DNA of 64,000 bases. It comes from Candidatus Nitrosothermus koennekei (GTDB lineage Archaea; Thermoproteota; Nitrososphaeria; Nitrososphaerales; Nitrosocaldaceae). The stretch covers positions 186,001 through 250,000 of the forward strand of contig JACAFH010000002.1 in the NCBI GenBank assembly GCA_013538715.1. The letters are read 5' to 3'. Positions 40,006-43,799 of the stretch are shown piece after piece. The translations under genes and the position numbers were made by a program. The stretch's first letter is position 1. The number at the start of each line of letters is the position of its first letter. A model generated the notes under the pieces. That model did no database searches and was not told the origin of the DNA. It was given only the letters and a program-made list of their open reading frames with translations.

Positions 40006-40173
40006 ATGAGGATAGAAAGAACTAAAGCTAAAAGGGTAGCAATTATACTCTTTGGTGTTGGAGTATGGGGCATAGGCATGAGTGTATATCTTCATAATTC
40101 CTTCTTATTGTTTTTTGCAGGAATAGATCTAGCAATGGGTGTAATATTTCTCATGAGTAAAAAAGATAAGTGA
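40006..40173 (+). CDS. Small two-helix membrane protein
   Basis: 55 residues from ATG 40006; the longer upstream frame runs inside the opposite gene and is not used. A basic start (MRIERTKAKR) is followed by VAIILFGVGVWGIGMSVYLH and SFLLFFAGIDLAMGVIFLMS. Its stop TGA is the first part of a TGATAATCA element. No known family. Confidence 0.55.
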   Translation: MRIERTKAKRVAIILFGVGVWGIGMSVYLHNSFLLFFAGIDLAMGVIFLMSKKDK

Positions 40174-40203
40174 TAATCAATAAGTTAATAAATGATTATC
40201 ATT
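40171..40203. promoter_or_regulatory. Pair of TGATWATCA elements before the 38-residue membrane protein
   Basis: TGATAATCA at 40171-40179 and TGATTATCA (within AATGATTATCATT) at 40193-40201, centres 22 bases apart (two helical turns). A TATA-like TTAATAAATG lies between them, so the sites flank the promoter of the gene starting at 40214. The same nine bases occur four times in front of the amt gene at 41822. Confidence 0.55.
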
Positions 40204-40213
40204 AATATATATT

Positions 40214-40330
40214 ATGGCGGAAGCTTCAATAACAAGCGTCGCAACTATGATTGTAATATTTGCTATCTGTGCAGGTATATGGTTTGCAGTACGTGCAGCA
40301 AGACCAAAAATAAAGAGCACGCAAACATAA
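40214..40330 (+). CDS. 38-residue single-pass membrane protein
   Basis: MAEASITSVATMIVIFAICA continues as a hydrophobic helix to GIWFAVRAA and ends with a basic tail RPKIKSTQT, so the C-terminus should stay inside. Too short for database-style recognition. Its promoter carries two TGATWATCA elements identical to those at the nearby amt gene, which argues that it is a real, co-regulated gene rather than noise. Its start lies ten bases after the second element. Confidence 0.6.
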   Translation: MAEASITSVATMIVIFAICAGIWFAVRAARPKIKSTQT

Positions 40331-40397: not shown

Positions 40398-41822
40398 TTA
40401 TTCTTCGACGTATGCACGTTCACCATGTTGCGCTATATCCAATCCTACCTCTTCTTCTCTTGGCGTTACTCTAATTCCTCCAGGCCATACTAGATCCATA
40501 ACTTTAAAGATAAGTAACGAGAGTCCAAACGAGTATGCTATTGCTACAGCTGCGCCTAGAGTATTAACTCCTAGTTGTGCTATATCACCTTCCCATGCTC
40601 CATCAAATCCATTTATGTGTGCATTTGCTAATATTCCTGTTAGTATAGCACCAACTGTACCTCCTGTTCCATGTACGCCCCATACATCTAATGCATCATC
40701 CCAACCTCTTCTATTCTTAAATATTACTGCACCATAACATACCATTGCAACTACAAACCCTATTATCATTGCACCCATTGGTGCTACAAATCCTGATGCT
40801 GGAGTTATACCTACTAGACCAGCTACTGCACCAGATGCAGCACCAACTATACTAGGTTTGCCAGTATGTGCCCAGCTCATAAGCATCCATGTAACTGCTG
40901 CTGTACCTGTAGCGAGATTAGTTACAACCCATGCACTTGCTGCTAAACCACTTGCTGCTACTGCACTACCTGCGTTAAATCCAAACCAACCAAACCATAG
41001 TAACGATGCACCAAGTATAATCATTGGTATATTATGAGGTTCCATTGGGACTTTACCTAAACCTAACCTCCTGCCTAATACCAATGCACCTGCCAATGCA
41101 CTCCAACCTGAAGATATATGTACAACTGTACCTCCTGCAAAATCTAATGCACCTAGATCGAAGAGGAATCCTCCTCCCCATACCCAATGCGCGAGTGGAT
41201 CATATACTACTGTAGCCCAAATTACTACAAATATTGCAAATGCACTAAACTTTATCCTATCAACTAAACCTCCCACTATAAGTGCTGGTGTTATTATAGC
41301 GAATGTTAGTTGGAACGCCATGAATGTTTGATGGGGTATTGTCATTGGGAATAATGGACCCTCTAGTGGTGCTTTATGAGATACACCGTTTAAGAATGCA
41401 TATGAGAAATCTCCAACAAAGTCATGTTGTCCATTTATAGCTGGACCAAATGCTAAACTATATCCATATAGTGTCCACTGAACTGTTATTATACCCATGA
41501 CTATAAATACCATCATTATAGTAGAGTTCACACTCTTCCTTCTAGCTAATCCTGCATAGAAGAATGCGACGCCTGGTGTCATCAATAGTACTAATGCAGA
41601 TGATGTTAACATCCATGCATTATCTCCTGTATCTATAGGACATGGATTTCCTGCCTCATCTCTACATTCATAAGGGTTCTCCTCAGGACCAACAAAGAGT
41701 GGTATGCTTCCATTCTCATTTGGTTGTGCTTCATTTGGTAAAATCTGAACTTCGCCATATGCTGCTATGTATGATATGCTTAGAATAGTTACTAGTATAG
41801 CCCATGTAGTCTTCATCTTCAT
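40398..41822 (-). CDS. amt: Ammonium transporter, canonical paralogue
   Basis: 474 residues, 11 transmembrane helices after an N-terminal signal-like helix (TWAILVTILSISYIAAYG). An unusual extracellular lead follows with a likely disulfide pair in NPYECRDEAGNPCPID. Conserved Amt residues: NAWMLTSSALVLLMTPGVAF, FYAGLARRKSVNSTIMM, QWTLYGYSLAFGP, the first pore His in GGTVVHISSGWSAL, and the second in DVWGVHGTGGTVGAILTG. The cytoplasmic tail (EEEVGLDIAQHGERAYVEE) is short. Takes up ammonium or ammonia. Its promoter carries four TGATWATCA elements. Confidence 0.96.
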   Translation of the reverse strand: MKMKTTWAILVTILSISYIAAYGEVQILPNEAQPNENGSIPLFVGPEENPYECRDEAGNPCPIDTGDNAWMLTSSALVLLMTPGVAFFYAGLARRKSVNSTIMMVFIVMGIITVQWTLYGYSLAFGPAINGQHDFVGDFSYAFLNGVSHKAPLEGPLFPMTIPHQTFMAFQLTFAIITPALIVGGLVDRIKFSAFAIFVVIWATVVYDPLAHWVWGGGFLFDLGALDFAGGTVVHISSGWSALAGALVLGRRLGLGKVPMEPHNIPMIILGASLLWFGWFGFNAGSAVAASGLAASAWVVTNLATGTAAVTWMLMSWAHTGKPSIVGAASGAVAGLVGITPASGFVAPMGAMIIGFVVAMVCYGAVIFKNRRGWDDALDVWGVHGTGGTVGAILTGILANAHINGFDGAWEGDIAQLGVNTLGAAVAIAYSFGLSLLIFKVMDLVWPGGIRVTPREEEVGLDIAQHGERAYVEE

Positions 41823-41830
41823 TAATCATT

Positions 41831-41896
41831 TGATAATCATTTTATTATAAAAATATTTTTTATTTTGATTATCAAATGATAATCAAATGATAATCA
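41831..41896. promoter_or_regulatory. Four-copy TGATWATCA operator array at the amt promoter
   Basis: Copies at 41831-41839 (TGATAATCA), 41866-41874 (TGATTATCA), 41877-41885 and 41888-41896 (both TGATAATCA). The last three are spaced exactly 11 bases start to start, that is one per helical turn on the same face. A TATA-like ATTTTTATAATAAAA (minus strand, about 41843-41857) lies between copy one and the other three, so the array brackets the promoter of the gene starting at 41822. This is a typical layout for a cooperative transcription factor. The protein is unknown. Confidence 0.7.
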
Positions 41897-41953: not shown

Positions 41954-43180
41954 TTATGTTATATTATATGATTTCTCTCCATGCAGTGATACATCTTCGC
42001 CTATCTCTTCCTCTTCTGGATTTACTCTTATTGGTTTGACAGCATTGATTATCCTTAATAGTACATAAGTTCCTACAAATCCAAATGAAGCTCCTACTAC
42101 AGTTCCTAGTGCTTGTACTCCAACTAGTGATGTAGAACCATATACTAAACCTACTGCAGCATCATTTGTTATCATCGGAGATGCAAATATTGCTACACTC
42201 ATTGTTCCCCAGACACATGTCATTCCATGTATAGATATTACATCACATACATCGTCTACTTTCAACCTGTCTTTGAAGAAGAGAACTCCAACGTAGAATA
42301 CTACTCCTGCAATAAGCCCTATGACCAATCCAGCCCATGGTTCTATATAACCCGAAGCAGGAGTTACAGCTGCTAAGCCTGCTATTGGACCATTTGCCCC
42401 TAAACTTGCACTTGGTTTCTTTGTTACTGCCCATCCTGCTAGTATTGTAGATAATCCAGCACCTGCAGCAGCAAGATTCGTAGCTACCATTGCAGATACT
42501 GCTATACCATTTGCAGCTAATGCACTACCACCATTAAATCCATTCCAACCAAACCATAGCAGAAAGAGCGCTAAGAACTGATATGTTACATTATGGCCGC
42601 TCATAACAGATGGTGTTCCAAATCCTATTCTTCTTCCAAGTATTAGTGCAGATGCTAAAGAACCGAATGCTGCTGAGAGATGCACAACTATGCCCCCTGC
42701 AAAGTCCAACACTCCTACCTTTGCTAACCAACCACCGCCCCAGACCCAATTTGCTAGAGGTGCATAGATCAATACTATCCATATTGGTATAAATACCAAC
42801 CATGGACCGAATCTCATCCTTTCTGCTAAGCCTCCAGTTATTAATGCTACAGTTATTGCTGCAAACATTCCTTGATAGATGAAGAAAAGATAACCCGGTA
42901 TTGTGTGATTACTGAATAGAGGCTCTGTAGTTACATTATTCAATGCTATATAGTCTAATGCTCCTATCCATCCATTTGTATTACCAAATGCTATTGTAAA
43001 GCCGAGAATAAACCATGCTATAAGCCCTATAACTGCAGTGAAAAGCACTTTCATTATTATACCAGATGCATTTTTTGCTCTAATCAATCCTGCTTCGAGA
43101 AAACCAACGCCACCTATCATTAGAAATACTAGCCCAGTTGAGACTATTATCCATGCGGTATCTCCTGTATCTATAGGCAT
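41954..43180 (-). CDS. amt: Ammonium transporter, divergent paralogue
   Basis: 408 residues, no signal peptide, 11 helices. It shares IDTGDTAWIIVSTGLVFLM and FGFVGTYVLLRI-type helices with the family, and the first pore His in GGIVVHLSAAFGSLASALI. The second His segment reads ISIHGMTCVWGTMSVAIFA where canonical Amts have VHGTGGTVGAI, so the pore exit is altered. GVGFLEAGLIRAKNASGIIM replaces AFFYGGLVRRKN. Nitrososphaeria commonly have two Amts of different affinity; which is which cannot be told. Followed by the canonical paralogue 131 bases downstream on the same strand. Confidence 0.93.
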   Translation of the reverse strand: MPIDTGDTAWIIVSTGLVFLMIGGVGFLEAGLIRAKNASGIIMKVLFTAVIGLIAWFILGFTIAFGNTNGWIGALDYIALNNVTTEPLFSNHTIPGYLFFIYQGMFAAITVALITGGLAERMRFGPWLVFIPIWIVLIYAPLANWVWGGGWLAKVGVLDFAGGIVVHLSAAFGSLASALILGRRIGFGTPSVMSGHNVTYQFLALFLLWFGWNGFNGGSALAANGIAVSAMVATNLAAAGAGLSTILAGWAVTKKPSASLGANGPIAGLAAVTPASGYIEPWAGLVIGLIAGVVFYVGVLFFKDRLKVDDVCDVISIHGMTCVWGTMSVAIFASPMITNDAAVGLVYGSTSLVGVQALGTVVGASFGFVGTYVLLRIINAVKPIRVNPEEEEIGEDVSLHGEKSYNIT

Positions 43181-43799
43181 ATAATCAAGTATTATTGCTT
43201 ATTTTTAAGTTTTATGGCTATAGCTAAATTTTTATTAATTTCTAATTAGATACACGCATATATTTATTAGTTTATCATTTGATAATTGAATTATAATCAT
43301 ATAGTTATATTATTATATATCGCTTATAATAGTGTTACTATAATCAGGATCTGATTATTAGTAGATATAAAACCTTGTTATCATAAAAAGCTTGATACAC
43401 TCATTTGTTAGTTGCTAGCAGATGCAATTAAATAATCATATAATAGTCTCGTATTTATTAATGAATATAATATGTTTTAACTCTTTATATATTTTAACCA
43501 TAAATAATAGCATAAGCTGACATTATTCTATTATTGTCTTAATCTACTATTAATGCTATAAATGTTATTTACTCATCTTTGTCTCTTGAAATCTTTTACA
43601 TCTGCTATAATTAATAAAATGAGACTAATTGCAAAATGTTATCAAATTATTGCTTAATATCATCTTCAAATTGTAGCATTCTTTAGTGCTAGAATATGAG
43701 GATCTCTCGTTCTCTTCTATGACTTGCTATTATCATTAGTTTATCTGCTGTTCCATTCTCGTTTAATTCTCTATAGAGATATTATCAATGAATAAAATA
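43181..43799. other. Intergenic stretch of about 620 bases with a possible decayed gene
   Basis: Near 43272-43285 the sequence TTATCATTTGATAA has the same half-sites and spacing as the amt operator array but is not an exact copy; it lies about 95 bases before the divergent amt start. From about 43560 to 43790, minus-strand fragments RELNENGTADKLMIIASHRR and then RDPHILALKNATI in a neighbouring frame look like a coding remnant split by frameshifts. I could not name it. The rest is AT-rich with nothing visible. Confidence 0.4.

Follow-up and report, generated by a model that had tools for sequence, protein, structure and literature searches.

The start of amt1, the first of two ammonium transporter genes in the 64,000-nucleotide stretch of Candidatus Nitrosothermus koennekei DNA analysed here (referred to as the window), is preceded by regularly spaced copies of the 9-mer TGATWATCA. 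This raises the question of which signal these copies answer to and which protein reads them. The features of the amt1 promoter are as follows:

41866-41874, 41877-41885 and 41888-41896, minus strand: upstream array of three exact TGATWATCA units that repeat every 11 bp; relative to the start codon of amt1 they lie at -52, -63 and -74
41840-41865, minus strand: AT-rich TATA-box region of amt1, read from the sequence, with operator units on both sides
41831-41839, minus strand: fourth exact unit, downstream of the TATA region, at -17 to -9 from the start codon of amt1
41820-41828, minus strand: imperfect fifth unit (coding strand: TGATTAATG) that overlaps the start codon of amt1
40398-41822, minus strand: amt1, ammonium transporter of 474 aa (PF00909, E=1.2e-117; TIGR00836)

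The preliminary description of this DNA had reported exact copies at amt1 as well as a pair ahead of a 38-aa open reading frame, and we confirmed both, the former at 41831, 41866, 41877 and 41888 with three of them 11 bp apart, the latter at 40171 and 40193, 22 bp apart. At a distance of 11 bp, the imperfect fifth unit and the 41831 copy form a pair with three mismatches (C18:227820-227839). In dinucleotide shuffles of the 131-bp region upstream of amt1, none of 5000 sequences contained more than one 9-mer, compared to four observed, three of which are in phase. Two 9-mers, the number observed in the region before the 38-aa frame, were likewise reached in 0 of 5000 shuffles; these statistics apply to the local regions only, the genome-wide figures below being drawn from pattern searches and short stretches.

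We found that the single 9-mer is not enriched, and it was dropped as a unit of evidence. The window contains six copies compared to 2.8 expected, a number reached by 10 of 100 shuffles, and the genome (1.458 Mb) contains 35 copies compared to 46 for a reversed-pattern control. Isolated copies elsewhere in this genome are mostly intragenic; one TGATTATCA (L020:2883) is located about 210 bp upstream of a gene for a 998-aa secreted, possibly surface-layer, protein. The tandem form behaves differently. Exact pairs at 11 bp occur three times in 1.458 Mb and never for the reversed control, and when up to three mismatches are allowed the counts are 23 and 10, respectively. Single copies are therefore frequent and unphased in the same genome, a finding that had been named in advance as one that would speak against an operator, but this does not hold for the tandem form. 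The signal is the 11-bp phasing, not the single 9-mer.

Two of the three exact pairs belong to the amt1 array. The third (G000:C24:168689-168708) precedes a PII gene (L016:8209-8553, PF00543), at 137-156 bp from its start codon, and the divergent gene on the opposite side of the pair has a more distant start. Such a location links the operator with nitrogen and not with metal. The alternative, that a Fur-like protein makes these promoters answer iron or another metal, derives from TGATAATCA, the core of the Fur box, which is contained in the classical Fur consensus. However, the units repeat every 11 bp and not as overlapping GATAAT hexamers, and 9-bp units with AA, TT or AT spacers do not form the 19-bp GATAATGATAATCATTATC-type box (7-1-7 or overlapping GATAAT). 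Moreover, the exact tandem sites lie at amt and PII genes, and no metal gene is found among the tandem sites of this genome. This period and these locations do not support the Fur-like reading, and we regard regulation by metal as highly improbable. An earlier suggestion of one shared regulator for an ammonium or a metal response thus survives in its nitrogen half, which is strongly supported by the PII gene site and by the amt2-glnK spacers described below.

The second ammonium transporter gene of the window is also preceded by operator-like sequences:

41954-43180, minus strand: amt2, ammonium transporter of 408 aa (PF00909, E=6e-114)
43269-43299, minus strand: array of three degenerate units, some 90-120 bp ahead of amt2, read from the sequence

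The looser motif noted earlier before amt2 does comprise degenerate copies, but it is better described as this three-unit array, AGTTTATCA-TT-TGATAATTG-AA-TTATAATCA, with 2, 2 and 1 mismatches by sequence reading. It is not significant alone, since the pattern search scored only its 43280-43299 pair, with three mismatches.

In order to place the operator in a broader context, we compared it with related genomes. Seven genomes represent the own family, Nitrosocaldaceae, six of them in the sister genus Nitrosocaldus. Exact 11-bp tandem pairs are absent from these six genomes; their amt1 promoters contain a degenerate unit (TGATTACCA/TGATTACTA) between TATA and start, matching the position of the fourth unit, and an exact single TGATTATCA is located upstream of amt2 in five of the six. 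Across the order, the tandem motif (up to one mismatch) was detected in 74 of 400 genomes, compared to one for the reversed control. The expected conservation of the array is therefore seen in the tandem form kept within the order, while the sister genus retains a degenerate form only. Among the first 29 tandem loci fetched, 25 lie between or beside amt2 and glnK, and at one further locus (L101) the tandem motif is located upstream of a gene for a PII-fusion protein itself. Chance was assumed for the tandem matches in L069, L082 and L092 and for those in f7, g41 and g59 genomes, which are situated within or next to unrelated genes.

In Nitrosopumilaceae, the operator is situated between the divergent amt2 and glnK genes, with two to three units in many genomes. 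In 62 of these spacers the units are found at about -74, -63 and -52 from both amt2 and glnK, mostly within 1-3 bp. These are the positions of the units at the Nitrosothermus amt1, which has one unit more, between TATA and start. These constant positions place the units on the same side of the helix in each case, directly ahead of the TATA region. Overall, the site recurs from genome to genome at genes for ammonium transport and PII, as expected of a nitrogen operator, and we consider the operator and its nitrogen context well supported. A San Francisco Bay bin of Nitrosopumilus (G311; named record L381) has 11 exact tandem copies of TGATAATCATT between glnK and amt2 (L114:7068-7186), compared to two to three units in its relatives; this array has either expanded recently or arisen through assembly. 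In Nitrosopumilus-like genomes, the gene immediately after amt2 is a DUF6659 gene (L103:9214-9582, L104:6144-6509).

Beside glnK, most operator loci encode a protein of about 193 aa that combines an N-terminal PII domain with a highly conserved C-terminal domain of about 65 residues, containing the block KRSR(L/F)VPLQK...RIKSFSDFVN-C. The own-genome homologue (171 aa; L309:3781-4296, corresponding to G000:C32:38780-39295) is encoded outside the window and adjoins neither amt nor any operator. It scored 29.8 bits against PF00543 and four relatives scored 33.9-41.8 bits, so that all five pass the cut-off of 25. The best structure matches of the fusion protein are PII proteins (E=4.7e-6). Alignment revealed that the GKIF(V/I) stretch is retained in the fusion proteins, and the GRGK stretch of GlnK was not found in them. 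AlphaFold models show the PII part followed by a helical C-terminal part. Another PII fusion is possibly encoded by open frames (about 420-439 aa) that include a PII domain, as seen at G199:C5:4386-4703, G292:C11:274743-275066 and comparable positions of g41 genomes.

The C-terminal domain had no significant Pfam or PDB match. Its only PDB match was a non-significant one (E=6.2) to ParB of pCXC100 (3no7), which we take to be a ribbon-helix-helix protein, and searches of PDB sequences and of viral structures returned nothing significant; a virus-borne form of the domain was searched for and none was found. By eye, the block resembles a ribbon-helix-helix, with a basic extended stretch, a helix, and a further helix with an S-x-S-D cap. 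An AlphaFold monomer consulted as a check of the ribbon-helix-helix fold has an extended start and helices at 8-23, 25-31 and 37-67 (pLDDT 89.7). Standalone homologues of 57-70 aa without PII were observed in other families of the order (L308:1375-1548, L307:1110-1322), and the 57-aa homologue L308 matched RHH_5 at E=0.04, below the cut-off. With these profile and structure results, the ribbon-helix-helix assignment is a weak one.

Of 232 Nitrosopumilaceae genomes, 62 contain both the fusion gene and the tandem motif, 33 the fusion gene only, four the motif only and 133 neither; these are raw genome counts, uncorrected for relatedness. The same pattern is seen inside the genera g37 and g27, and in one motif-only genome (G368) the contig ends just past glnK, at the expected place of the fusion gene. 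The fusion gene often adjoins the operator, so that the co-occurrence could reflect loss of the entire cluster; we therefore tested the amt2-glnK spacer itself. All 38 spacers fetched via the fusion gene had 0-3 mismatches, whereas all 19 fetched via glnK from genomes without a detected fusion gene, in which amt2 and glnK are present, had 4-8 mismatches (shuffle background: up to three mismatches in 0.6%). Another 19 spacers, also from genomes with the fusion gene, were mostly picked for having missed the strict pattern; 17 of them scored 2-4 and the other two 6 and 7. Spacers that are weak despite the fusion gene include those of G170 (4 mismatches) and G193 (6 mismatches); Nitrosopelagicus spacers have 4. 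In a second collection, which overlaps the first, the domain was present at 77 named loci. Almost all of these are recorded as ammonia-oxidising or other Nitrososphaeria archaea, and among the 61 with amt nearby, 55 had a tandem site with up to two mismatches.

These observations bear on the possibility that the arrays are chance or low-complexity repeats of an AT-rich genome. The lack of enrichment of the single 9-mer would be compatible with such an origin, and the 11 exact copies at L114 resemble a repeat expansion. Yet the order-wide excess over the control, the constant gene context and position, the shuffles and the missing operator where the fusion gene is missing all argue in the other direction. 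The conservation data already contradict chance, to which we give next to no credence.

Operator and fusion protein also vary together. The G356 spacer (score 7) reads TGTATAACA-AA-TGTATTACA, an 11-bp tandem of near-palindromic 9-mers, and its fusion protein contains GRNRFVSLQ...SFNDF; in G336, the spacer TGTTATACA-AT-TGTTATACA accompanies TRNRLVSLQ...SFNDF. Compared to the common form KRSR(L/F)VPLQ...SFSDF, both proteins are changed at near-invariant residues, and in both genomes the operator is altered with its period unchanged. The remaining tabulated fusion proteins all have PLQ and SFSD, and KRNRLVPLQ members have a half-changed array, for example TGTATATCT-TT-TGATTATCA. This covariation points to direct contact between the two, although perhaps no more than one or two evolutionary events underlie it.

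Another regulator might nevertheless bind the nitrogen operator, either a CopG-like protein or an unlinked helix-turn-helix protein, with the PII fusion being a signalling partner inherited with the cluster. Short tandem palindromes fit ribbon-helix-helix proteins, and at several loci a CopG-like gene follows amt2 (L098:5982-6569, L099:8996-9583, L100, L196). This gene is, however, not beside amt2 in the Nitrosopumilus-like loci that were read, even though the operator is present there. In Nitrosotenuis (g10), the fusion gene is unlinked to amt2-glnK, and the operator is found in the amt2-glnK spacer of six pattern-positive genomes; this case and the covariation favour the fusion protein over the CopG-like gene. 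Overall, we consider a different operator-binding protein unlikely. The CopG-like gene of Nitrosarchaeum-like genomes, directly after amt2, encodes 195 aa and is PF12441-like below the cut-off.

Taken together, comparative sequence data make it likely that the PII fusion binds the operator and controls amt and glnK by nitrogen status. TGATWATCA is a two-fold symmetric unit whose 11-bp repeat corresponds to one helical turn, which would align regulator dimers along the same side of the helix immediately before the TATA box. The N-terminal PII domain (PF00543) would sense nitrogen or energy status, the candidate signal being 2-oxoglutarate, ATP/ADP or the partner GlnK, and the C-terminal domain would contact DNA. 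Its targets would be the ammonium transporter and PII (glnK) genes and, in Nitrosothermus, also the 38-aa membrane gene. Because the units lie upstream of TATA, we slightly favour activation under nitrogen scarcity over repression. At the Nitrosothermus amt1, the additional unit that follows TATA may damp or shut off the promoter. In the field, Amt2 was the top-expressed gene of ammonia-oxidising archaea, with a nearly tenfold rise during a bloom at low ammonia (PMC11334935). This rise agrees with nitrogen control, and such swings in Amt2 transcripts could be explained by the operator and the PII fusion.

Several known systems share parts of this arrangement. In NikR, a ribbon-helix-helix domain is joined to a ligand-sensing domain of the ACT type with a ferredoxin-like fold, and the candidate would similarly unite a small ferredoxin-like-fold sensor and a small dimeric DNA-binding domain, and thus sensing and binding, in one molecule. 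In contrast to the nickel-binding ACT sensor and the two distant half-sites of NikR, it combines a PII sensor and a predicted C-terminal DNA-binding domain with 9-bp palindromes at 11 bp. Operators of the MetJ and Arc type, which are read by ribbon-helix-helix proteins, likewise consist of short palindromic subsites in tandem, about one helical turn apart and suited to side-by-side dimers. MetJ has its own sequence and spacing with 8-bp boxes, whereas the ribbon-helix-helix fold of the candidate is only putative. The NrpR operator is a GGAA-N6-TTCC-type palindrome, which was not found in the amt1 upstream sequence read. NrpR/NrpA of methanogens differ in operator sequence, have no such tandem layout and are distinct from a PII fusion, but the targets are the same, as glnK1/amtB1 are under NrpR in Methanosarcina (PMC10714827). 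In bacteria, PII also governs amt and glnK transcription by nitrogen status (NtrB, PipX-NtcA, TnrA or AmtR with GlnK); there it acts via a separate DNA-binding protein, whereas the candidate has PII and a probable DNA-binding domain in one chain.

We found no paper in a literature search that names a nitrogen transcription factor or operator of ammonia-oxidising archaea. These organisms depend on ammonium, and an operator, its targets, its geometry and a candidate sensor-regulator are now proposed for them. The PII fusion is a previously unremarked protein and the first concrete candidate for their nitrogen regulator; if the proposal is true, nitrogen sensing and promoter control are united in one molecule that serves Nitrosocaldaceae and much of Nitrosopumilaceae, among the commonest archaea of the ocean. 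PII is familiar as a carrier of signals to the proteins it binds, and the comparisons suggest that it can act directly on DNA. That it would do so as a sequence-specific transcription factor, as PII oligomers whose C-terminal DNA-binding dimers sit side by side on helical-turn repeats, appears rather more probable than otherwise.

The remaining operator units of the window belong to the small gene convergent with amt1:

40171-40179, plus strand: operator unit upstream of the probable TATA region, at -43 from the 38-aa gene
40193-40201, plus strand: operator unit at -21, downstream of the probable TATA region and ahead of the 38-aa gene's start
40214-40330, plus strand: 38-aa protein with one hydrophobic segment, convergent with amt1

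Homologues with an identical MAEA start adjoin amt1 in five of the six sister-genus genomes, and on account of this synteny we consider the frame a real gene. The earlier claim that a tiny membrane gene shares the operator holds with regard to the gene; operators ahead of its homologues were not found in the sister-genus genomes, and because the two units occur in Nitrosothermus only, its membership in the regulon has no support from conservation. A 55-aa open reading frame with two hydrophobic stretches (40006-40173), which had no match in a Pfam search, ends right before the first of these units. AmoY and AmoZ (9.6 and 12.8 kDa; PMC10030591) were excluded by size as the identity of the 38-aa protein. 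A possible parallel is sP36 of Methanosarcina mazei, which is also tiny and tied to nitrogen status and an ammonium transporter, but has no transmembrane helix (PMC10714827), in contrast to the one hydrophobic segment found here. By analogy, we would guess that the 38-aa protein might be a small partner of Amt.
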